Source: a virus. Taken from it: a DNA stretch of 33,858 nt. Shown here one piece after another: positions 1,878 through 11,673 of the stretch; position 1 is the stretch's first letter, and every line of letters begins with the position of its first letter. The position numbers and the translations under genes are program-made. Location: positions 1 through 33,858 of IMG/VR virus record IMGVR_UViG_3300049893_000662. One strand, 5' to 3'. A model generated the notes under the pieces. The model saw only the letters and a list, made by a program, of their open reading frames with translations. It had not been told where the DNA came from and did not search any database.

Positions 1878-3359
1878 TTACACCTTTCTCTTAAATAGTT
1901 GTGCCATATCGTCCTGACGATGGATTAACTTACCTGCTGGTTCCCATTCTTGGTCAAGACCAGTAACCTTCATAATATTATCAATTGAACCATACTGCTG
2001 TGTCCAATCACAGGTCAAGTTAATGAGTAATAGGTCTGTCTTGTCATAGAGTTGCTTACGAACCTGCTCTGCGGTTGCCCGAGTAGTCTCTAATAAACGA
2101 CCTGGCATTAAGAGTACTAAACTGTACATATCTTCTTTCCAAGTGTTTAATTCAAAAATACTTCCCATCGTAAAGACGCCCCAGTGAATTGTGGTTGCGG
2201 CAGACATACAACGTTGTCTATCCATTTCCACACCATGTGGTACTAAATCAAATCTGTCTCCAACCACACGACCTAATAAGACACCATTACCACACCCCAA
2301 GTCAAGAACATTACCACCAGGAATATATTTCATATCACCGATTGCATCAATAATAACTTGGTGGAAGTGATCCATAGCTTCCTTATTACTAAATCCATTT
2401 TCTTCCCACATCGAAGTATCTTCAAGAGACTTAGCAAATGAAATAGTTTTTGTAACTGGCTTGACTTTAATTTTCTTTTGATTGTATGGATAGGTAATAC
2501 CCGACATACCATCTACTGGATATTCGTGGGCATGTTTCTGAACTACGTACTTCCACGGAGTCATGTCCGTGCGAGAAGAAATTTTATTGATGGGAGTGCG
2601 AATTTCTGCAATTCCATGCAGTGCTGACCATTCTACAGGCCACGACAGTAATTCGTAAATCCAATCAATTTGTTCACTATATCCCAACTTACGACCAAGT
2701 TCTGCCATCTTCATACCAAGTTCTTCGGTAGCTTTGCAGTTAAATGAGCATGGAAGATGAGATACTAATCGTACACCCTGCCAACGCCACAAGATATTAC
2801 ATTCTGGTGGTGTATCTGCCTTGATGTGGATGGTTGTATGTGTTTCATCGTCATCATCCAACTGCATATCGTCCGATGCCATCGTCCACGTAGAATCCAC
2901 AAATCCTTGGTTGACCCAATACTTCATAAAGTGATTGGTACAACACGTAGGATATCCAAGCAAACGACCAGCTTCACGGTCACGAATATTTGGTTCTGCC
3001 TGCCAAATATTAAACCATTCATCAGCCATTGCTTCCGATTTAGTAAATACTACACGAACGTTATAATCACCACCAGTATGTGGTGTGCTAGTTGAAGAGT
3101 AGGTTTTTGCTTTACCTTCTTTCGCAATAGGAACTACGAGCACACCGTACTTTTTATATTCGTCGATAAGTCTTGTAAGTTCTGCGGGTGACACAATATC
3201 CAACGAGGATGGACGAATATCGTGCACAACTGACATACGTTCTATATGCCGCCAGACACCGTTTATTGAAGCAATAATCGGTTCATACTTAATTCTATTT
3301 TCCATACTTGTCCACTGCACCCGAGTCCAATCGGGTAAGACATGCTTTATTCTTCGCAT
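1878..3359 (-). CDS. DUF483-like domain fused to SAM-dependent methyltransferase
   Basis: A 493-residue two-part protein. The N-terminal half has GYPTCC at 135-140 and HLPCSFNC at 201-208, a paired-cysteine pattern resembling DUF483-type proteins and suggesting a metal site. The C-terminal part (about 325-493) is a class I Rossmann methyltransferase: motif I NVLDLGCGNG at 350-359 and an acidic motif II-like end GVEMD at 376-380. The family moves a methyl group from S-adenosylmethionine; the substrate cannot be read from sequence. The ATG follows a strong AGAAGGGG site, 20 bases after the small HADH-box gene, with the radical SAM gene beyond that. A SAM methyltransferase beside a radical SAM/SPASM enzyme and repeat proteins is a common arrangement in peptide modification loci, so I infer action on the same substrate. 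A DNA, RNA or small-molecule target is possible. The methyltransferase call is firm; the DUF483 assignment is moderate. Confidence 0.82.
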   Translation of the reverse strand: MRRIKHVLPDWTRVQWTSMENRIKYEPIIASINGVWRHIERMSVVHDIRPSSLDIVSPAELTRLIDEYKKYGVLVVPIAKEGKAKTYSSTSTPHTGGDYNVRVVFTKSEAMADEWFNIWQAEPNIRDREAGRLLGYPTCCTNHFMKYWVNQGFVDSTWTMASDDMQLDDDDETHTTIHIKADTPPECNILWRWQGVRLVSHLPCSFNCKATEELGMKMAELGRKLGYSEQIDWIYELLSWPVEWSALHGIAEIRTPINKISSRTDMTPWKYVVQKHAHEYPVDGMSGITYPYNQKKIKVKPVTKTISFAKSLEDTSMWEENGFSNKEAMDHFHQVIIDAIGDMKYIPGGNVLDLGCGNGVLLGRVVGDRFDLVPHGVEMDRQRCMSAATTIHWGVFTMGSIFELNTWKEDMYSLVLLMPGRLLETTRATAEQVRKQLYDKTDLLLINLTCDWTQQYGSIDNIMKVTGLDQEWEPAGKLIHRQDDMAQLFKRKV

Positions 3360-3378
3360 AACCCCTTCTGTGTTTAAA

Positions 3379-3747
3379 TTAAACCTTCAACTTACTCTTT
3401 TCTTCTGCGATAATCTTTTGTAAGAAGGACTTCCAGGAATTTCCAGTACTTTCTTCTACAGGTGCCGATGACGAAGTACCGTACTTTGCTTCATACGCCG
3501 CTGCGTAACGACCAGTCTCGTCGTAATGGTCGGCATGCCCATCCGTCATATCAAATTCTTCTTGACCACCAATAACTTGTGATGTAATACTTACGGGAAC
3601 TACTTCTGCAACGGTTTCGGTTGCCACACGAAATTCTGCTGGTACTTCCTTTAGTACTCCTGACTCAACCAGTTCTTTAACTACTGCGAACTTTTGACCA
3701 TATGCACCGGATGCATCTACGTGGTCTGCGTGTAATTGCGGAATCAT
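3379..3747 (-). CDS. Small protein with two HADH boxes, possible carrier or substrate of the radical SAM enzyme
   Basis: A 122-residue protein with no recognised family. It has two copies of a motif also present at the end of the adjacent radical SAM enzyme: HADHVDASGAY at residues 6-16 and HADHYDETGRYA at 71-82, the second followed by AYEAKYG. Between them lies a Val/Glu-rich segment (about 20-65). The C-terminus (103-122) is a basic amphipathic helix-like stretch. There are no cysteines, signal peptide or membrane segments. The start has a good AGAGGAT site; the gene lies 30 bases after the radical SAM gene and 19 bases before the methyltransferase gene. By position and motif sharing it could be a precursor, a recognition partner or an assembly factor. 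None is proven. An alternative is that the box is a phage docking tag unrelated to catalysis. Confidence 0.78.
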   Translation of the reverse strand: MIPQLHADHVDASGAYGQKFAVVKELVESGVLKEVPAEFRVATETVAEVVPVSITSQVIGGQEEFDMTDGHADHYDETGRYAAAYEAKYGTSSSAPVEESTGNSWKSFLQKIIAEEKSKLKV

Positions 3748-3777
3748 ACATATCCTCTTTTTGTAATAAGTAATTGT

Positions 3778-5088
3778 TTATGGTAAATATCCATATTTCT
3801 GTTCAAACTCAATCGCATATCTGCCTGTTTCATCTGTATGGTCGGCGTGTGGTTGGTTACCACTCGATTGATTACGTAGATATTGAGTAATGAAGTTTTC
3901 AATATCGAAGTTGCCTCTTAAGTATTCCTTAATATATGCTAATCTAATTTCAACTCCTCTACTATAACCATACATTAAGACATCTTCGTACTTCTTTAAA
4001 TCTGGACTGAGAGAAAGTGGTACCTCACCTTTTTGCACCATCAACTTTTCAAAGATACCAAATGCTACCTTCCAGTTCATGCAAGTATCGGTTCTATTTC
4101 TCCAATCCATATCTGCTCCTGTACCAGGGCAGTGTGATTTACACATAATGAAGAACCGACATCCTTGACAACCACCATATTCTTGCGGGGTATTATATAA
4201 CGCCATTTGACGTTCAAATCCGTCAATATCTGCTTTAATCCAATTAATACCTTCTTTATTACCACGACCACAGTTTGCCTTATTACCTTGGGAGTCAATA
4301 CCTTGTACAGCGTGTGTTGTATATGGGTCACACGATAAAAATGTACACGTTGCATCATTATCACGTGCCAGCAACATATCTTCTACGTCACGGAAAATGT
4401 CGAAGTTGAATGGACGCTTACCAGGAACGTTTAACTCACCAATTTCGAATTCCCACATATCTAGAAGAAATTCAATATTTTGTTCTGGGGTCAGAGCTAG
4501 TGTTTCACCAACTGAGCTATGGTCAATTTCTAATGGATGAAGTCGAGCACCAGGTACACCCCATGCCTGCAATTCTTTAATCCATGCCTTAAATCGTTCG
4601 CGATACTTTGGTAACCCGTTCTTTTTATGAATGGTAATAATCAGTCCAATAGAAATATTATTTTCTAGACACTTCTTGATAGCCTCGAATGATTTCTTCG
4701 TTGCTGCTCTAGTCTTTTCAAGCGACCCAGCCCAACGGGTATCATTCATTTCATCAGGTCCGTCAAGAGAAACACCGACATGAACGTTATATTTCTTGAA
4801 CATTTCGATATGACGATCTGTAATTAATACGCCATTTGTTTGGATACCGTTACTTCCGTAACGTTCGTATCCCCACTTAAAAATAGTTTCTAAGTCGTCA
4901 ATATCAGTTAATAATGGTTCACCACCAAATAGAGTAAAGTTACCACCCTCCTTTTCCAGTCCTTCTAACATTTTTTCAAGAGAATATGTTTTTTGACGGA
5001 AATTTCCTGCGTCACGCATAGGATGCTCGTAACAATACGGGCAACTTAAATTACACATTACTCCAACTGGTTCCAATTCAATCGTCAT
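3778..5088 (-). CDS. Radical SAM/SPASM peptide-modifying enzyme with HADH-box C-terminal tail
   Basis: A 436-residue radical SAM enzyme. The [4Fe-4S] motif is C12-x3-C16-x2-C19 in MCNLSCPYCYE, and the SAM-binding GGEP lies at 55-58. Eight further cysteines (248, 253, 273 in NCGRG, 307, 310, 316, 320 and 336) form a SPASM-type C-terminal domain that normally holds auxiliary Fe-S clusters. This combination is typical of anaerobic sulfatase maturases and RiPP maturases acting on peptides or proteins through the 5'-deoxyadenosyl radical. The last 23 residues (414-436) carry HADHTDETGRYA followed by FEQKYG, an appendage not needed for the fold and shared with the next gene. The ATG has a CGAGG site and lies about 23 bases downstream of the expected start of a sigma70-type promoter. 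Upstream lie the His-Thr-Asp/Asn repeat proteins, the leading candidate substrates. Enzyme class is near certain; the reaction is unknown. Confidence 0.95.
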   Translation of the reverse strand: MTIELEPVGVMCNLSCPYCYEHPMRDAGNFRQKTYSLEKMLEGLEKEGGNFTLFGGEPLLTDIDDLETIFKWGYERYGSNGIQTNGVLITDRHIEMFKKYNVHVGVSLDGPDEMNDTRWAGSLEKTRAATKKSFEAIKKCLENNISIGLIITIHKKNGLPKYRERFKAWIKELQAWGVPGARLHPLEIDHSSVGETLALTPEQNIEFLLDMWEFEIGELNVPGKRPFNFDIFRDVEDMLLARDNDATCTFLSCDPYTTHAVQGIDSQGNKANCGRGNKEGINWIKADIDGFERQMALYNTPQEYGGCQGCRFFIMCKSHCPGTGADMDWRNRTDTCMNWKVAFGIFEKLMVQKGEVPLSLSPDLKKYEDVLMYGYSRGVEIRLAYIKEYLRGNFDIENFITQYLRNQSSGNQPHADHTDETGRYAIEFEQKYGYLP

Positions 5089-5117
5089 ATAACCTCGTGA
5101 TTAATAAATCATTTTAT

Positions 5118-5146
5118 AATATATCAGGATAATACAGATTTGTCAA
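5118..5146 (-). promoter_or_regulatory. Sigma70-type promoter for the radical SAM operon
   Basis: On the minus strand a perfect -35 TTGACA (5141-5146) and a -10 TATATT (5118-5123) are separated by exactly 17 bases. Transcription would start near 5111, giving a leader of about 23 bases that includes the CGAGG ribosome site. This is the only clear host-type promoter I see in the window. It suggests the modification and helicase genes can be expressed by unmodified host RNA polymerase, earlier than or separately from the fibre genes upstream. Confidence 0.7.
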
Positions 5147-5152
5147 GCCCAA

Positions 5153-5992
5153 TTATGGACCAACTAATACTGGTTGGTCACTATGTGGCGTGGTGTTATC
5201 TGTATGTGCTGCTGCGATATCGGTGTGCGATGCGTTTGTGGTGTTGTCTGTGTGCGCTGCGTTGATTGTTGTATTCGTGAACGGTGTGGTACTATCTGTA
5301 TGTGCGGCAGTGATTGTAGTATTTGTAAATGGTATAGTTGTATTACTAAACGCTGTGGTGTTGTCTGTGTGCGCAGCTGCGATGTTAGTGTGCGATGCGT
5401 TGGTAGTATTGTCGGTGTGTGCTGCTGCGATATCGGTATGCGATGCTGCGATGTTAGTGTGGGATGCGTTTGTGGTATTATCTGTGTGAGCAGCTGCGAT
5501 GTCTGTATGTGATGCGTTGGTAGTATTATCGGTATGTGCTGCTGCGATATCTGTGTGTGCCGCTCCAACATTACTGTGTGCGATGTTGGTATGTGATGCT
5601 GGTGTGGTTGAGTTTGAGAACGGTGTTGTACTATTTGAGAAGTTAGTTGTGTTGTCTGTATGTGCTGCCCCAATATTGGTGTGAGCGGCTGTAATATTCG
5701 TATGTGCGGCACCGATGTTTGTATGTGCAGCACCGATATTTGTATGCGCCGCACCAATATTACTATGTGCGATGTTTGTGTGTGACGTACCAATATTAAC
5801 GAACGCTATATTACTAAATGGTGTGGTACTATTAGAAAACCCAACATTACTAAATGGTGTAGTTGAATTTGAGAAGTTAGTTGTACTATTAGAAAATCCA
5901 ACATTACTAAATGGTGTGGTACTATTAGAAAATGCAAGATTATGATGAGCGATATTAGTATGTGACGTTGCAGGAGTATTGGTATGTGCCAT
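5153..5992 (-). CDS. [H/F]-[S/T]-[N/D] repeat protein, almost entirely repeat (279 aa)
   Basis: From residue 3 to the end, apart from a short tail QPVLVGP, the protein is 39 units of His or Phe, then Ser/Thr, then Asn/Asp, then 2, 4 or 6 linker residues. Examples are [12 protein letters not shown] and HTDNTTNAS. Of 38 unit spacings, 37 are odd (5, 7 or 9 residues); the single exception is 8, at the very start. Phe units occur mainly in the N-terminal third and His-Thr-Asp units in the C-terminal half. There are no cysteines, signal peptide or globular domain. Five-residue units such as TNIAH fit a pentapeptide-repeat-like A(N/D)LXX pattern, so a beta-solenoid or fibrous shaft is plausible. 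It lies 64 bases upstream of the radical SAM gene. I infer a fibre or surface component and candidate substrate. A weak GAGAT site precedes the ATG at 5992. Confidence 0.85.
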   Translation of the reverse strand: MAHTNTPATSHTNIAHHNLAFSNSTTPFSNVGFSNSTTNFSNSTTPFSNVGFSNSTTPFSNIAFVNIGTSHTNIAHSNIGAAHTNIGAAHTNIGAAHTNITAAHTNIGAAHTDNTTNFSNSTTPFSNSTTPASHTNIAHSNVGAAHTDIAAAHTDNTTNASHTDIAAAHTDNTTNASHTNIAASHTDIAAAHTDNTTNASHTNIAAAHTDNTTAFSNTTIPFTNTTITAAHTDSTTPFTNTTINAAHTDNTTNASHTDIAAAHTDNTTPHSDQPVLVGP

Positions 5993-6030
5993 GGGTTATC
6001 TCAAAAAATTAACGCTTAAATTTACACGTA

Positions 6031-6423
6031 CTATCTAGGTACTATAGTTAATATAGCGATTTTAACCACAGGATCTACCATAGGTTGTAATCGGTATATA
6101 TCTCCATCTCTTGTCCATTTACGTTCTTTTGTTTCATCATATTTTGATGCGTATGTGTTTGGTATAGCTGACGCAAATGTTTCTTTCGATATAGCATTTC
6201 CATCGTGATTAAAATGTCCAACACAAAATGTAAAATCATCCGAGTATTGATTATATGAAATCCACCATTTTGCTTGATATGGAAATCCAGAAAATCCTAC
6301 TTGTTGATTAACACCTTCGGGAGTGGTTAAGGTTTCAAACATATCAGGACGTTCACCAGAGGTGTACAATCCAAATAAATTTTGTTCTTGTAAAAAATTT
6401 TTTAATTCTGTTACAGAATTCAT
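6031..6423 (-). CDS. Hypothetical protein between two repeat genes (130 aa)
   Basis: A globular-looking protein rich in aromatic residues (WWISYNQ, FTFCVGHFNHDG) with no family I recognise. It has a single cysteine at the FCVGHF segment, no repeat units, and no membrane segment apart from a mildly hydrophobic C-terminus (VKIAILTIVP). A strong AGGAGAT site precedes the ATG. The gene is sandwiched between two [H/F]-[S/T]-[N/D] repeat genes, 26 bases after one and 38 bases before the other. It may be a cap, chaperone or partner for these proteins, but that rests on position alone. Confidence 0.8.
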   Translation of the reverse strand: MNSVTELKNFLQEQNLFGLYTSGERPDMFETLTTPEGVNQQVGFSGFPYQAKWWISYNQYSDDFTFCVGHFNHDGNAISKETFASAIPNTYASKYDETKERKWTRDGDIYRLQPMVDPVVKIAILTIVPR

Positions 6424-6449
6424 TTTATATCTCCTTAGTTAATAACCTA

Positions 6450-7661
6450 TTATTGACAGAAATCACCAGGATTGCAATATCCCGTTGGAGTTCCTGCACA
6501 AAAACATCCATACTGAGCACATCCGTTATCACACACATCACCAATACACGCACATGTTGTACTATCTCCATGTGGACTTGTACTGTTAGAGAATGCAATA
6601 TTACCATGTCCGCTATTTGTATGCGATGCACCTACATTACTATGTGCAATATTGGTATGTGCCGCACCAACATTCGTATGCGATGCTCCAACATTACTGT
6701 GTCCGATGTTAGTGTGTGACGCCCCTACGTTACTATGTGCAATATTTGTATGTGCTATAGTAGTGTTTGTAAATGCGATATTACTGAACGGAGTAGTGCT
6801 ATTGGAAAACGGAGTTGTGCTATTGGAAAACGGAGTTGTGCTATTGGAAAACGGAGTTGTGCTATTGGAAAACGGAGTTGTATTATCAGTATGCGCCGCT
6901 GCGATGTTAGTGTGTGCTGCTCCAATATTTGTATGTGCTGCGGTAATAGTGGTGTTTGTAAATGCGATATTACTAAATGGTGTGGTTGAATTCGAGAACG
7001 CTGTGGTATTATCTGTATGAGCGGCTGGAATTGTTGTATTGGTGAATGCCGTGGTATTATCGGTGTGTGCTGCAGTGATCGTAGTATTTGTAAATGGTAT
7101 AGTTGTATTACTGAAAGCCGTTGTGTTATCTGTATGAGCGGCTGGAATTGTTGTGTTACTAAAGGCTGTAGTATTGTCTGTGTGTGCTGCTGCTATATCT
7201 GTATGTGATGCTGCGATGTCTGTATGTGATGCGTTTGTGGTGCTATCGGTATGTGCTGCTGCAATATCTGTATGTGATGCGTTGGTAGTATTGTCTGTGT
7301 GTGCTGCGTTGATTGTGGTATTGGTAAATGGTGTGGTATTATCGGTGTGTGCTGCGGTTACGTCGGTGTGACCACGGCGAGCATTACCAACAGAGGATAT
7401 CCATTGCCAGAATGTAGTTTGTACCCACACCGACCCTGCCTTTGCTCCAGCCGCAGCTCCCAAATCAGTAGATGCAATTGTACGGTCAACACCAGTAGCC
7501 GAGATATAATGGAAATCGTTTCCATCTACCCAGATAGACCCAGCCTTAGCTCCCGCAGGACTTGTACCTGCGGTGCCAGTATAATAATATTCATTTCCTG
7601 TTGCGTCAATAAATCTAAAGGTTTCACCATCAACCCATATACTACCAGGTGCCTTAGCCAT
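6450..7661 (-). CDS. Repeat fibre protein with GSIWVDG head and cysteine-rich tip (403 aa)
   Basis: Three parts are visible. Residues 1-97 hold three diverged copies of a short module (PGSIWVDGETFRFIDATG, AGSIWVDGNDFHYISATG and AGSVWVQTTFWQWISSVG), which looks like a beta-rich attachment or oligomerisation head. Residues 98-369 are 39 [H/F]-[S/T]-[N/D] units whose 38 spacings are all 5, 7 or 9; they include five FSN units at 21-base DNA period. Residues 370-403 are a compact tail with eight cysteines in 34 residues (CACIGDVC, NGCAQYGCFC), suggesting disulfides or a metal cluster. Head, shaft and tip together look like a fibre. The GGAG site is 11 bases before the ATG. The repeat domain is a candidate substrate of the radical SAM enzyme encoded downstream. 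A non-fibre secreted or internal virion role cannot be excluded. Confidence 0.87.
   Translation of the reverse strand: MAKAPGSIWVDGETFRFIDATGNEYYYTGTAGTSPAGAKAGSIWVDGNDFHYISATGVDRTIASTDLGAAAGAKAGSVWVQTTFWQWISSVGNARRGHTDVTAAHTDNTTPFTNTTINAAHTDNTTNASHTDIAAAHTDSTTNASHTDIAASHTDIAAAHTDNTTAFSNTTIPAAHTDNTTAFSNTTIPFTNTTITAAHTDNTTAFTNTTIPAAHTDNTTAFSNSTTPFSNIAFTNTTITAAHTNIGAAHTNIAAAHTDNTTPFSNSTTPFSNSTTPFSNSTTPFSNSTTPFSNIAFTNTTIAHTNIAHSNVGASHTNIGHSNVGASHTNVGAAHTNIAHSNVGASHTNSGHGNIAFSNSTSPHGDSTTCACIGDVCDNGCAQYGCFCAGTPTGYCNPGDFCQ
6801..6884 (-). repeat. Four-copy 21-bp tandem repeat inside the repeat fibre gene
   Basis: Four consecutive 21-base units, beginning on the plus strand with attggaaaacggag, each encode FSNSTTP. 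The first three are identical and the fourth differs only at its last bases. Elsewhere the same peptide unit uses different codons, so this block is likely a recent slippage or unequal recombination expansion that keeps the reading frame. Confidence 0.9.
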
Positions 7662-7693
7662 ATCTTAAAATCTCCACATAACATCAACCTCTA

Positions 7694-7725
7694 TATAAGT
7701 AGTATTTTTCATATCTTTACTTATA
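7694..7725 (-). promoter_or_regulatory. Inverted repeat TATAAGTA/TACTTATA upstream of the GSIWVDG repeat gene
   Basis: An 8-base inverted repeat (7694-7701 and 7718-7725, 16-base spacer) lies in the 73-base gap between the collagen-like gene and the repeat gene. The minus strand therefore carries TATAAGTA about 57 bases before the start codon, one base from the T4 late-promoter octamer TATAAATA, and also its complement nearer the start. It may be a late promoter or an AT-rich regulatory palindrome; chance is possible. Confidence 0.35.
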
Positions 7726-7734
7726 AAAACGATG

Positions 7735-8598
7735 TTATACACACGTAAATGTTCCTAAACAACCGACTGGTCTTGCTGCGCAAACCACAGAATATAATGT
7801 ACTATTTGGGTTTACATAAAAGTTTGATCCTGACGATGGGGTACCTTGTACACAATTTACATATCCTGCTGGACATTCTGCGTCAACACCACGACTTCCT
7901 TGTGGACCTGTTGGCCCTTGAACTCCAGCGATACCTTGTACACCACCAGTTCCCGTTGATGCAGCCCCCGCAGATATACCTGTTACACCGACAATACCTG
8001 TTGCACCCTGTGGACCACTTGGACCCGTAGAACCAGTAGTTGGTAATCCAACTGGACCTGTTGGACCTGTAATGCCAACTAAATTAGTTAGTCCTATTGG
8101 TCCTGTAACCCCAATCACACCTGTTGCACCCGTAATACCTATTACACCAGTAGCACCAGTAGCACCAGTTGGTCCTGTTGCACCAGTAGAACCTGACGTA
8201 AATGATGCAATGCCTGTTGGACCTGTGATACCTGTGATACCAATAACTCCTGTGATACCAGTTGGTCCTGTTGGTCCTGTGCTTCCCGTTACCCCTGTTG
8301 GTCCTGTAATACCCGTAATACCTATTGACCCCGTTGGTCCTGTTGGTCCTGTTGGTCCCGAACTTGTTAATCCTGTTGGACCTGTTGCACCAGTTGGCCC
8401 CGTAGAACCAGAACCTGCCGACCCCGATGGTCCTGTTGGACCTGTTGGACCCTTATCGCCTTGTGGTCCTGTTGGTCCAGGACCATATGATGCGGTCAAT
8501 ACATTTACATTCACTGCATACGTTGCGGTAAATGCTAAACTACTTGTGAGTGAGACACTTGCAGTTGTTGGTGTACCTAGTGGGAAAAATTGCGACAT
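7735..8598 (-). CDS. Collagen-like phage fibre protein with cysteine-containing tip (287 aa)
   Basis: The N-terminal head of about 40 residues ([15 protein letters not shown], later LTASYGPG) matches the heads of the two other collagen-like genes nearby. Roughly residues 41-235 are Gly-X-Y triplets dominated by GPT, GAT and GIT, with a few interruptions. The last 48 residues contain five cysteines ([22 protein letters not shown]), probably a folded or disulfide-linked tip. Collagen-like triple helices are known shafts in tailed-phage fibres, and Thr-rich triplets are typical of bacterial and phage versions without hydroxyproline. The gene starts 6 bases after the stop of the chimaeric repeat gene and has no clear ribosome site, so translation is probably coupled. 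The receptor is unknown. Confidence 0.88.
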
Positions 8599-8604
8599 AT
8601 CGTA

Positions 8605-10218
8605 TTATAGGTATGCGTTACTGTGGGCTGCTGCGATATTTGAATGCGGTATTGTAGTATTTGTAAAGTTAGTGGTATTATCTGTGTGAGTTGCTGGTGT
8701 GGTACTGTTTGAGAATGCTATATTACTAAATGGTGTGGTACTATTGGAGAATGGTGTTGTGGAGTTTGAAAATCCAGTATTTGCAAATCCTATATCAGTA
8801 TGTGCTGCTCCAACATTACTATGTGCAATATTTGTATGTGCTGCTCCAATATTACTATGTGCAATATTACTATGCGCAATATTACTAAATGGTATCGTCG
8901 TATTTGAGAAGTTTGTAGTACTGTTTGCAAAAGGTATAGTGCTATTACTAAATGGTGTTGTACTATTTGCAAAATTATCATATGGAGCACACGGAGTACC
9001 AGATACAGCGGCACAACTTGGAGCCCCTTCATAGAATATACATCCTGGACCCGCATCTCCGTCCAAACAGTAATAACCAGTCAATGCAATATTTGTATGT
9101 GCTGCGGATATATCTGTATGTGCTGGTGATGTGTCGCTGTGCGATGCACCAATATCTGTGTGTGATCCTGCGATATTTGAAAACGCAATATTACTAAATC
9201 CAATATTACTAAATGGTGTTGTTGAATTTGAGAATCCAATATTACTAAATGGTGTAGTGCTATTGGAAAATGCTGTATTGCTGTGAGCAATATTAGTATG
9301 TCCCGCAGTAATATCTGTATGTCCCGATGTTACATTACTATGTGCAATATTTGTATGTGCTGCGTTTGTGGTATTGTCAGTATGCGCTGCACTGATATCT
9401 GTATGACTTGCTACTACGTCACTATGCGGTACTGTGATATCCGCGTGTGTTTGATTACAAGACCCTGTAATAAAGAATGCAGCTCGACCAGCTGCTCCTT
9501 GTGGTCCTGTTGGACCAATTGACCCACTTGGTCCTGTAGCTCCTGTTGCACCTGCTGCACCGAATGTATTTGGGCCAGAGGATCCTGACGGTCCTATTGC
9601 ACCCGTTGCACCCGTTGGGCCTACTGGGCCTGTTGGTCCTGCTGATCCTGATGCTCCTGTTGGACCTGTTGCACCTGTCGGACCTACCCCTGTTGGACCT
9701 GTACTTCCTTGTACACCCGTTGGCCCCGATGATCCTGTAGGTCCAGTTGGTCCCACAACACCAGCTACACCTGCTGTGGTACTAGCACTACCAGTTGGTC
9801 CTGTTGGTCCTGTAATACCCGTTGCACCAGTTGCTCCTTGTATACCCGATGGACCTGTAATACCAATAACACCTGTAGATCCTGTGATACCCGTTGGACC
9901 CGTTGGACCTGTTGCTCCACTTGGACCACTTGGACCTGTTGGTCCTGTAGATCCTGACGTTTGTGGGCCTGATGAACCCGATACACCTTGTACACCTGTT
10001 GATCCCGATATTCCCGATGGTCCGCTTGGTCCAGTCGCACCAGTAGCACCTTGTGGACCAGATGGGCCTGTTGGTCCTGATGGTCCACCTAGTGCATATG
10101 ATGCTGTTAAGTACGCAGAACCACTATTCGTTGCAACCGATGCCGTAAATGTCGTATTGGCATTAATTGCGAACGAACTAGTCGTTGGTACACCAAATGG
10201 GAAAAACTTAAACGTCAT
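8605..10218 (-). CDS. Chimaeric collagen-like and [H/F]-[S/T]-[N/D] repeat fibre protein (537 aa)
   Basis: The head, residues 1-45 ([25 protein letters not shown]), is shared with the neighbouring collagen-like proteins. A Gly-X-Y region spans about 45-245. A short link containing FFITGSCNQ leads to repeat block 1, 19 units at 258-379, beginning with HADITVP, the variant closest to the HADH box of the radical SAM enzyme. Residues 380-415 form a small insert with four cysteines (C384, C393, C402, C410). Repeat block 2, 19 units at 416-537, runs to the C-terminus. All 36 internal spacings of the two blocks are odd. The protein thus joins the fibre architecture of one family to the repeats of the other, the best evidence that the repeat proteins are displayed on fibres. 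The start has a GAGAGAAAG site 16 bases after the upstream collagen-like gene. Confidence 0.9.
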
Positions 10219-10233
10219 AACACTTTCTCTCTA

Positions 10234-10965
10234 TTATGGTGTGTTTGCACCAGTTGGACCTGTTGCACCCTGTGCTCCACTAGGACCTGTTGGACCTGTT
10301 GCACCCGTTGCACCTGTTGGTCCTGTAAATGCTGTTCCTTGCGCACCTGTTGGTCCTGTTGGTCCTGTAACGCCTATGGTACCGCCAGGTCCCGATGACC
10401 CAAATGGACCACTTGGGCCAGTTGCACCAGTTGGTCCTTGAATACCAGATACAGCAATACCTGTTGCACCAGTTGGGCCTGTTGCTCCTGTAACACCTAC
10501 CGGTCCTGCAAAACCTTGTACACCAGAGGGGCCACTTGGTCCTTGTGGTCCTGTTGGGCCTGTTGCACCTGTGATTCCAACAATGCCTGTTGCTCCTGTT
10601 GCCCCCGTTGGCCCTGTACTTCCCGAGACTCCTCGTGGTCCTGTTGGTCCTGTTGATGCTGCTCCAGTTGCCCCCGTTGCTCCCGTTGGTCCTGTAATAC
10701 CTGTTGGACCTGTTGGACCTGTTGCGGAACGTGGTCCTGTTGGACCTGTAATACCGATTGGTCCTGTTGGACCTATTCCTGTTGGTCCTGTAATCCCCGT
10801 GACGCCTTGTACTACTGATGTTGGTCCCGTTGGACCTGTTGGTCCACCACCCGTAAGTGAATACGATGCAGTCATACCAGACAGCACGAACGATGCTGTC
10901 GTTGCTGCCGATCCTGTAAATGCGAATGAAGAACTAAACGTTCTAAACGGAAAATATCTTAACAT
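10234..10965 (-). CDS. Collagen-like phage fibre protein (243 aa)
   Basis: The head [14 protein letters not shown] with later SYSLTGGG is related to the heads of the other two collagen-like genes, and is followed from about residue 40 to the end by Gly-X-Y triplets (GPT, GAT, GIT). It ends abruptly at GANTP, with no cysteine-rich or globular tip, unlike the 287-residue paralogue. This could mean a shortened protein, or a shaft whose tip is supplied by another chain. The next gene starts 16 bases downstream with the same type of head. A virion fibre role is inferred from the collagen-like shaft and the structural-gene setting. Its ribosome site is weak (TTGGATTACT). Confidence 0.87.
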
Positions 10966-11013
10966 AGTAATCCAATATAAATATTCATCACCAACTTATC
11001 TACTTTGTTTTTA

Positions 11014-11673
11014 TTACTTTACAGGAAGCCATTTTCCAACAGGACATGCCGATGCCGCCAATTGTGTTTTTGCTTTCATAAAGCATCCGCATTTTTCACA
11101 ACGAAAATTGTCCTTTAAAAATTCACAACCTTGACAAATTGAAAATCTGTTAAATGCGGTATCTGCGTCAACCATTATTGGTAGTCCTTGTGCAGCATGC
11201 TTACCAGTCATCCACATTTCTTTTGCTAAATTACGTGCCTGTTGAAATACAGAAGGGAACTTTGATGTATCTTCCGACTTCATCATTTGTTCAGTACGCT
11301 CATAACTGTCTTTATTTTCTGCACCGAATGCTGCTTCTGCATATGTCATACCCTCAACCATCTTATACGCCGTTACGATATCAGTTGGTGCTGTCATCGC
11401 ATTATGACCTTGACGATAAAAAAGAGGTGTATAATTCTTTGGTGCAAAATAGTACACTGCTTGTGTCATCGGTCGTGGGAACATAATTGGTTCTTCACGA
11501 TAACAAATTGTATGTAAGTGAACTGGATTTTGTTGTCCCTTAACTTGGTTTTCTAAATCTGTCAAAAACTTACTTTTGAAATTTTCACATCCTTCTGCGA
11601 CAATCACTGCTATAACGACATGCGTTGCATTGTCAATTAATTCTTGTAAATCACGAAACATTTGTACGCTCAT
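11014..11673 (-). CDS. Phage protein with C-terminal zinc-ribbon-like cysteine cluster (219 aa)
   Basis: Residues 1-100 look like a mixed alpha/beta domain (THVVIAVIVAEGCENFKSKF). A central helical region contains AEAAFGAENKDSYERTEQMM. The C-terminus holds CQGCEFL, CEKCGCFMKAK and a final CPVGKW, a four-to-six-cysteine arrangement typical of a zinc ribbon seen in phage structural and tail-region proteins. The N-terminal domain might bind a fibre or act as a glycosyltransferase-like fold, but I see no diagnostic motif. The start has a good AGAGGAT site that overlaps the stop of the upstream gene. Position at the end of the large fibre array suggests an assembly or accessory role; function unknown. 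Confidence 0.82.
   Translation of the reverse strand: MSVQMFRDLQELIDNATHVVIAVIVAEGCENFKSKFLTDLENQVKGQQNPVHLHTICYREEPIMFPRPMTQAVYYFAPKNYTPLFYRQGHNAMTAPTDIVTAYKMVEGMTYAEAAFGAENKDSYERTEQMMKSEDTSKFPSVFQQARNLAKEMWMTGKHAAQGLPIMVDADTAFNRFSICQGCEFLKDNFRCEKCGCFMKAKTQLAASACPVGKWLPVK

Follow-up and report, generated by a model that had tools for sequence, protein, structure and literature searches.

The 33,858 nucleotides of viral DNA described here, called the window in what follows, are positions 1-33,858 of the IMG/VR record IMGVR_UViG_3300049893_000662 (one strand, 5' to 3'). On the minus strand, at 1878-10218, lies a module in which a radical S-adenosylmethionine (SAM)/SPASM enzyme (3778-5088) stands beside proteins built of aromatic-x-Asn/Asp repeats. 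Our preferred reading, to which we give a probability of roughly 0.6 as a whole, is that this enzyme is the maturase of three neighbouring repeat proteins and, with a DUF483 partner, crosslinks their repeat units. The pairing of enzyme and substrate is strongly supported as real and is of a kind known from the pathways of ribosomally synthesized and post-translationally modified peptides (RiPPs); judged from the sequences, the repeats are very probably what the enzyme acts on. What appears to be new is an enzyme family without a name in NCBIfam, a new partner, and long virus-encoded proteins of the tail region as candidate substrates.

An earlier note, made from the letters of this DNA and its open reading frames (ORFs), had placed the enzyme, a HADH-box protein (3379-3747) and a DUF483-methyltransferase fusion (1878-3359) next to one another. 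ORFs, profiles and folds agree with this arrangement, and all genes of the module were found where the note had put them, on the minus strand. The note had also described three repeat genes in 5153-10218, made of [H/F]-[S/T]-[N/D] units. Three repeat proteins are present and each carries the motif, but the interval holds five genes (a 130-residue ORF at 6031-6423 and a collagen-like gene at 7735-8598 are interleaved), and one of the three is a repeat protein only in its C-terminal half. By motif count, repeat protein 1 (5153-5992) consists of [H/F]-[T/S]-[N/D] nearly throughout, with 39 aromatic-x-N/D units. Repeat protein 2 (6450-7661) starts with an N-terminal triple GSxW domain, which is common to other repeat proteins, followed by 43 units and a Cys-rich end. 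Repeat protein 3 (8605-10218) is collagen-like in its N half according to Pfam and carries 39 aromatic-x-N/D units in its C half.

The motif follows a positional rule. In the window, Asn or Asp is found two positions after His (+2) in 71 of 73 cases (26/27, 24/25 and 21/21 in repeat proteins 1, 2 and 3), and all 13 Phe residues of repeat protein 1 have Asn at +2. Against the observed 39, 43 and 39 aromatic-x-[ND] units, 2000 shuffles gave means of 7.5, 8.9 and 5.3 and maxima of 15, 17 and 13; among the spacings of 1 to 8 that were tested, none other than +2 occurred more than 14 times. At the DNA level 27/39, 27/40 and 23/38 units are distinct and synonymous codons are mixed. The rule is therefore kept at the protein level, and simple DNA slippage was rejected as an explanation for the repeats. 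They fall into no Pfam or NCBIfam family, and the best PHROG match (phrog_19577, 0.0006) is unconvincing.

The same rule was found in 116 repeat proteins from loci of the enzyme family, where proteins and dense zones were picked on H-x-[ND] alone. Asn or Asp stood at +2 of His in 3198/3294 cases (97%), of Phe in 207/396 (52%), of Tyr in 175/559 (31%) and of Trp in 14/83 (17%), and for each of the other sixteen residues the rate was 2-14% (highest Thr at 14%, then Met at 11%). An earlier count over 118 proteins, picked by [HFWY]-x-[ND] and omitting loci L220, L251 and L386, had given 96, 62, 31 and 26% for His, Phe, Tyr and Trp. The recount on His-only selection was made because the [HFWY] selection favours Phe, Tyr and Trp; it shifted the aromatic-rule and DUF483 counts and left the odds the same. 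In the window's clade N/D follows 147 of 167 Phe residues, with Asn in 138 of them, and 800 of 801 His residues, with Asn in 383. Other clades use Tyr (175/452) more than Phe (60/229). Across 84 family repeat proteins, unit starts are mostly 3, 4, 5, 7 or 9 residues apart and units starting at neighbouring residues occur only 20 times. Spacing and aromatic rule together are what would be expected of separate three-residue substrates with an aromatic first residue.

Co-occurrence of enzyme and repeats in independent phages, which the earlier note had asked for beforehand as a check, was borne out. Two degenerate H-x-D DNA patterns were run against IMG/VR and gave at least 235 loci; the matches listed are a sample of these, and the counts of this repeat-first scan apply among them. 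At 47 loci an ORF passed a strict repeat filter. A member of the enzyme family (a candidate scoring above 120 bits against the enzyme profile, in the locus pieces) is found on the same record in 42 of the 47, in 38 within the locus piece and in the other 4 elsewhere on the record; for L258, which is among the 42, the match spans 55 residues at a contig end. The repeat ORF nearest to the enzyme gene lies no more than 35 bases away in 30 of the 38 measured, often with overlapping stop and start. Clustering these 38 enzymes at 90% identity leaves 31 groups, and at 60% it leaves 21; they are 29-48% identical to the window's enzyme, bar one partial match (64% over 137 residues). The loci include near-copies, as L170 and L177, with identical enzyme scores, appear to be. 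Repeats regularly found without the enzyme were the outcome that the note had named as a refutation. Only 5 of the 47 loci lack it, all of them kept in the count; judged by eye and after the fact, two have convincing repeats and the other three (L220, L251 and L386) are low-complexity in appearance. At the 188 loci where no ORF passed the strict filter (1.68 Mb in all), the enzyme was detected 4 times, and inspection showed repeats in each of the 4.

When loci were collected by the enzyme instead, an H-x-[ND] cluster was found in 34 of 38 viral loci, a set that counts the window itself and three named phages, in 44 of 69 bacterial loci and in 3 of 61 control loci of generic radical SAM enzymes, each of the three at the filter minimum. 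Where there is a cluster, no more than 300 bases separate its gene from the enzyme in 26 of the 34 viral and 32 of the 44 bacterial loci. In the four viral misses (L014, L016, L018 and L023), which were kept as misses, the enzyme or DUF483 gene is near the contig end, and relatives have the repeat gene further out. Moreover, the family is rare: at E 1e-60 it was present in 2 of 194 cyanobacterial and 1 of 199 acidobacterial genomes, with the centre genome counted in each. Chance co-occurrence is therefore not credible, and chance proximity of enzyme and repeats was rejected on the strength of the 188-locus, generic radical SAM and genome-rarity controls.

The enzyme has the features of the radical SAM/SPASM superfamily, namely a CxxxCxxC motif, a seven-Cys SPASM pattern (C253-x14-G-x4-C273 ... 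C307-x2-C310-x5-C316-x3-C320 ... C336) and, in its predicted structure, a partial TIM barrel fold. It matches Radical_SAM in Pfam (1.1e-16) and phrog_1802 in PHROG (3.2e-27). Its three radical-SAM Cys and the SPASM Cys are invariant in 50 of 50 aligned relatives. The model (predicted local distance difference test score, pLDDT, 88.4; predicted template modelling score, pTM, 0.85) is closest to the anaerobic sulfatase maturase anSME (Z 28.7, 2.9 A over 328 residues) and to ChlB (Z 28.5). These best structural matches are peptide-acting SPASM enzymes, with bound peptides named in their PDB titles. Seven family enzymes were also scanned against NCBIfam, with the best 25 matches per protein considered. 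The window's enzyme scored 74.8 bits for anSME (cut-off 349) and 67.9 bits for YhhB (cut-off 445). None of the seven reached the cut-off of a named cyclophane-maturase family (XyeB, GrrM/OscB, FxsB, YhhB or AmcB), for which the best score was 83.4 bits against 425 (AmcB, a Thermus member). With scores so far below the cut-offs, the chemistry is not readable from the family.

A further feature is the C-terminal tail of the enzyme, HADHTDETGRY, which contains substrate-like H-x-D units. At least two H-x-[ND] units were found in the own C-tail of 19 of 50 enzymes, often as HGD..HGDHTD, and the enzymes of L405 and L406/L407 have such tail units as well. The 122-residue protein at 3379-3747 carries two H.DH.D..G.Y boxes (HADHxDxxGxY), the third being that of the enzyme's tail. 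Its homologs were found at 13 loci (L001-L013) among L001-L039 and L090-L158 scanned, in the window's clade only. Since H-x-[ND] tails recur in 19 of 50 enzymes, the HADHTD box, present both in the window's enzyme and in the 122-residue protein, is this clade's form of a recurrent substrate-like tail.

The partner of the enzyme, at 1878-3359, is a fusion of DUF483 (about residues 1-290) with a class I SAM methyltransferase (about residues 313-493), as judged by Pfam and fold. The match to DUF483 (PF04467) is marginal at 25.4 bits against a cut-off of 25 (E 1.5e-5), and past it all Pfam methyltransferase matches are below cut-off. The structure search, which covered residues 313-493, returned a class I methyltransferase fold for the model (NodS, Z 15.8, 3.2 A over 167 residues). 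By a DUF483-only profile, 68 of 69 bacterial family loci have a relative no more than 300 bases from the enzyme, fused to it at 16 loci; at the one miss (L112) the DNA ends just after the enzyme. Among viral loci a relative was present in 34 of 38, and the DNA of the misses (L014, L016, L023 and L034) stops close to the enzyme. Of the 38 enzyme-bearing repeat-first pieces, 30 gave a match to the DUF483-methyltransferase profile. Cys 139, 140, 204 and 208 are invariant in 30 aligned DUF483 members and may bind a metal or an Fe-S cluster; phiMa and Cumys, both Thermus phages, have His in place of the third.

On the reading that we prefer, the enzyme with its DUF483 partner would act on each His-x-Asp, His-x-Asn and Phe-x-Asn unit, before the chain folds and assembles or while it does so, with as many as about 40 sites in one chain. 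The reaction would most probably be that of the three-residue cyclophane (triceptide) enzymes, in which the ring of an aromatic residue i is joined through a C-C bond to Cbeta of the Asn or Asp at i+2. A chain of small rings would result, stiff and resistant to proteases, and it would prolong the collagen-like stalk that is fused to one of the repeat proteins. The enzyme's tail and the HADH-box protein are probably H-x-D substrate mimics for docking or self-modification, and the methyltransferase domain would be an accessory, absent in some relatives. Genes for tail sheath, tail tube and other tail-type proteins lie upstream of the module on the same strand. From this tail-module position the repeat proteins may be virion tail fibres, and the position together with the collagen-like fusion suggests that the modification would stiffen them. 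The proposal of the earlier note, that the phage modifies the repeats of its own fibres, is supported in this form; the modification, its chemistry and the virion location are what we infer.

For the cyclophane chemistry as such, we regard the chances as even. The substrate rule found here, an aromatic residue at i and Asn or Asp at i+2, is that of the cyclophane enzymes, and an i to i+2 crosslink is therefore favoured. The triceptide enzymes XncB/XyeB, OscB/GrrM, MscB/FxsB, YxdB, HaaB and YhhB are likewise SPASM enzymes with aromatic-X-Asn/Asp motifs, and such motifs stand beside the enzyme in the window. According to the part of the source available to us, Phe-x-Asn and His are established there as ring donors, with C4(Phe)-Cbeta(Asn) links made by XncB/OscB, C7(Trp)-Cbeta(Asn/Asp) by OscB, C3(Tyr)-Cbeta(Asp) by YxdB and C2(His)-Cbeta(Ala) by HaaB; the known His links are C2(His)-Cbeta(Ala/Arg), and links to Asp come from OscB/YxdB (PMC11002830). 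The preference of the window's clade for Asn after Phe (138 of 147) matches the C4(Phe)-Cbeta(Asn) link of XncB/OscB (PMC11002830). In contrast to the triceptide systems, the enzyme here is of another family, has a DUF483 partner and bears a substrate-like tail of its own, and in place of short precursors the window offers candidate substrates of 279, 403 and 537 residues with tens of units each. Short candidates were found in bacteria: at L105 (2417-2626) and L106 (9764-9973), 69-residue peptides made almost entirely of H-x-D units lie shortly before an enzyme-DUF483 fusion. These may be minimal, easily expressed candidate substrates.

Several observations weigh against the proposed maturation or narrow it. 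A His-to-Asp or His-to-Asn cyclophane was not found in the part of PMC11002830 available to us. All seven enzymes fall far below the NCBIfam cut-offs among their best 25 matches, and the nearest models include the anaerobic sulfatase maturase beside cyclophane enzymes. Tyr in the window's clade has N/D at +2 in 0 of 107 cases, and the rate for Trp is barely above that of the top background residues. The repeat-first scans are samples, and two loci with convincing repeats, L370 and L389, have no enzyme on fragments of 17.6 and 19 kb. In the Thermus phage phiLo the repeat genes are about 4 kb from the enzyme and on the opposite strand. A haloarchaeal plasmid (NZ_CP100402, L413) has enzyme and DUF483 with no repeat protein within the 13 kb read, a cyanobacterial locus (L415) has both with no H-x-D cluster, and cyanobacterial relatives are described, in the portion of the paper at hand, beside deazapurine DNA-modification genes (PMC11437467). 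Finally, 25 of 69 bacterial loci, including those of Bradyrhizobium, Sphingomonas and Nannocystis, lack an H-x-N/D cluster in the locus pieces. The family is therefore not tied to repeats everywhere; either it may have other targets or the filter may have missed short clusters. At ten cluster-less family loci the neighbours were scanned for another enriched three-residue motif, and nothing convincing was found except at L090, which has a 1034-residue upstream protein with 6 H-x-D.

The strongest of the alternatives, although we consider it unlikely, is that the repeats are modified by a different radical reaction: epimerisation to D-Asp or D-Asn, anSME-like beta-oxidation or dehydrogenation, or a His C-N crosslink, with methylation in addition. 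anSME is the best fold match (tied with ChlB) and among the best NCBIfam matches, and in the window DUF483 carries a fused methyltransferase domain. anSME oxidises one Ser or Cys per sulfatase. Against this alternative, epimerisation or oxidation of Asp or Asn has no need of an aromatic residue two positions before it, while the repeats clearly prefer His, Phe and Tyr there. Also against it, enzyme and repeats are retained in the Thermus phages alongside a 312-residue DUF483 protein in which the methyltransferase region is missing.

It is very improbable that the module modifies DNA instead of protein, as was suggested for its Thermus relative. A module of radical SAM enzyme, DUF483 and a gene of unknown function has been described in Cumys, phiMa and prophages, and modification of DNA was proposed for it (PMC11437467). 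That module is homologous to the one in the window: an enzyme 46% identical, a DUF483 protein and an adjoining repeat gene are found together. The cyanobacterial gene context given in that paper speaks for the suggestion, as does the cyanobacterial locus L415, with enzyme and DUF483 and without repeats. However, deazapurine modification genes are absent from the Thermus phages according to the same text (PMC11437467). The third gene of the module is probably the H-x-D repeat gene that adjoins the enzyme in Cumys and phiMa. Repeats and enzyme occur together in 42 of the 47 listed loci, and the enzyme's fold groups with modifiers of peptides and proteins. Less likely still is a reading in which the repeats stay unmodified, as metal-binding or beta-structured parts of the fibre, and the enzyme has another target and merely travels with the fibre genes. 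His-x-Asp/Asn can coordinate metals, but Phe, which takes the place of His with Asn at +2 in repeat protein 1 (13/13), is not a metal ligand; the same units recur in the tails of 19 of 50 enzymes, and close adjacency is kept across divergent phages, bacteria and a haloarchaeon.

The earlier note had likened the module to the Hxs systems, in which radical SAM maturases are paired with a His-Xaa-Ser repeat protein (HxsA/HxsB/HxsC/HxsD). The likeness holds only in function, as both pair a radical SAM enzyme with a His-containing repeat protein, but the motif here is His-x-Asn/Asp, the module has one radical SAM gene and not two, and DUF483 is the partner. Membership in the Hxs group was rejected on N/D, not Ser, at +2 of His (71/73). 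Among the best 25 of 61 NCBIfam matches there is no Hxs model, and the enzyme reaches no named family there. Other radical SAM repeat-peptide clusters are described in PMC9062424, the available part of which mentions HxsB/HxsC. The note had also known of no described phage system of this kind. The module is in fact partly in print, although the repeats of the neighbouring gene in Cumys and phiMa and a protein target go unmentioned in the portion consulted (PMC11437467). In the open-licence literature of PubMed Central, which was the scope of the search (subscription papers and preprints lie outside it), this was the one paper on the module among those listed. PMC7112168, consulted for DUF483, deals in the part seen with DUF4832 and DUF4956. 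Many radical SAM genes are reported from Campylobacter phages, with metabolic roles suggested in the part seen (PMC2853527).

Of 50,697 phage records, those of the Thermus phages phiLo, Cumys and phiMa are the only ones to exceed 40% identity to the enzyme (46-52%), and eight further phage records match at 22-37%. The Cumys repeat protein as query matched the phiLo, Cumys and phiMa records only, and no phage was hit by tblastn with either repeat protein 1 of the window or the repeat protein of L029. In Cumys and phiMa the gene adjoining the enzyme encodes an H-x-D repeat protein of 342/343 residues, with 61 and 62 aromatic-x-[ND] units, respectively. phiLo has three repeat proteins of 474, 782 and at least 499 residues with 81, 113 and 58 units. 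Furthermore, the module reaches archaea and is not confined to phages. On the haloarchaeal plasmid NZ_CP100467.1 (L414, 5338-8498), found with a cyanobacterial family enzyme as query, a repeat protein with GSxW and H-x-D is followed by the enzyme and DUF483. The three are annotated as 'hypothetical protein', 'radical SAM protein' and 'hypothetical protein', and a baseplate J gene lies within the same 13 kb.

In a midpoint-rooted tree of 50 enzymes with many weak forks, the window falls within a viral group of 10 rows (100/99), and the bacterial rows come from 11 phyla. Some of the loci without clusters group in branches by themselves (Bradyrhizobium/Sphingomonas/Paraburkholderia 100/99, Marinicella/Alcanivoracaceae 100/100), and the rest lie dispersed in the tree. 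The loci L138-L141, L143-L146, L148-L150 and L152-L154 (Bradyrhizobium, Sphingomonas and related) have enzyme and DUF483 and no H-x-D cluster; at L138 a CxxxCxxC protein is nearby (6967-8040). In L415, next to enzyme and DUF483, a minus-strand gene (10222-11037) encodes repeated THDQSLN heptads, perhaps another type of substrate. The viral locus L022 (10001-15545) has two family enzymes and two DUF483 proteins, then a repeat protein that is mostly H-x-N. By eye, the H-x-D proteins of L097, L109 and L157 have twin-arginine-like starts (SRRALLRAG..., SRRQLLQVG...), which suggests that these bacterial repeat proteins are exported.

At somewhat less than even odds, and tentatively, the preferred reading may be widened: the viral fibre would be a post-translational polymer in which tens of His/Phe-to-Asn/Asp cyclophanes lock tail proteins, the enzyme would crosslink its own tail, and the same module would act on exported or giant proteins of bacteria and archaea. 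This would amount to a general and so far unnamed way of hardening extended proteins, as opposed to making small peptide products. If the narrower maturase reading is true, phages alter their own structural proteins covalently by a radical reaction, at dozens of positions in each chain, and cyclophane-type chemistry would be extended from short peptides to long protein materials. A radical SAM family unnamed in NCBIfam would gain a predicted substrate and motif, testable in the isolated Thermus phages phiMa, Cumys and phiLo, and DUF483 would gain a biological setting. The DNA-modification guess published for the homologous module, as it stands in the part of the paper seen (PMC11437467), would then be corrected.

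Of the remaining genes in and around the module, the 130-residue ORF at 6031-6423 shows no motif enrichment by count, no relative in the viral and bacterial loci scanned and no Pfam, PHROG or NCBIfam family match; it is possibly a recent insertion. An alignment of the GSxW N-terminal domain held no stretch conserved enough for a search of the collection. psbA, sought on 6 related viral records as a sign of a cyanobacterial host, was found in 0 of 6. The minus-strand gene at 7735-8598 encodes a collagen-like (GPTGPT) fibre protein (Pfam Collagen, 6.2e-24) without the [H/F]-x-N/D motif, and a further collagen-like fibre protein is encoded on the same strand at 10234-10965 (6.8e-22). Collagen repeats such as those of collagen-like phage fibres are thus shared by 7735-8598, 8605-10218 and 10234-10965, whereas the aromatic-x-N/D repeats are a separate element. 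Cys-rich stretches were seen by eye at or near the repeats in 6450-7661 and 8605-10218, for example CACIGDVCDNGCAQYGCFCAG at the end of 6450-7661, and Cys-rich ends of a like kind are present in the relatives from L001-L003. A minus-strand gene for a SNF2-type helicase (1-1659; Pfam 1.1e-31, phrog_62 1.8e-90) follows directly downstream of the module and runs off the edge of the window.

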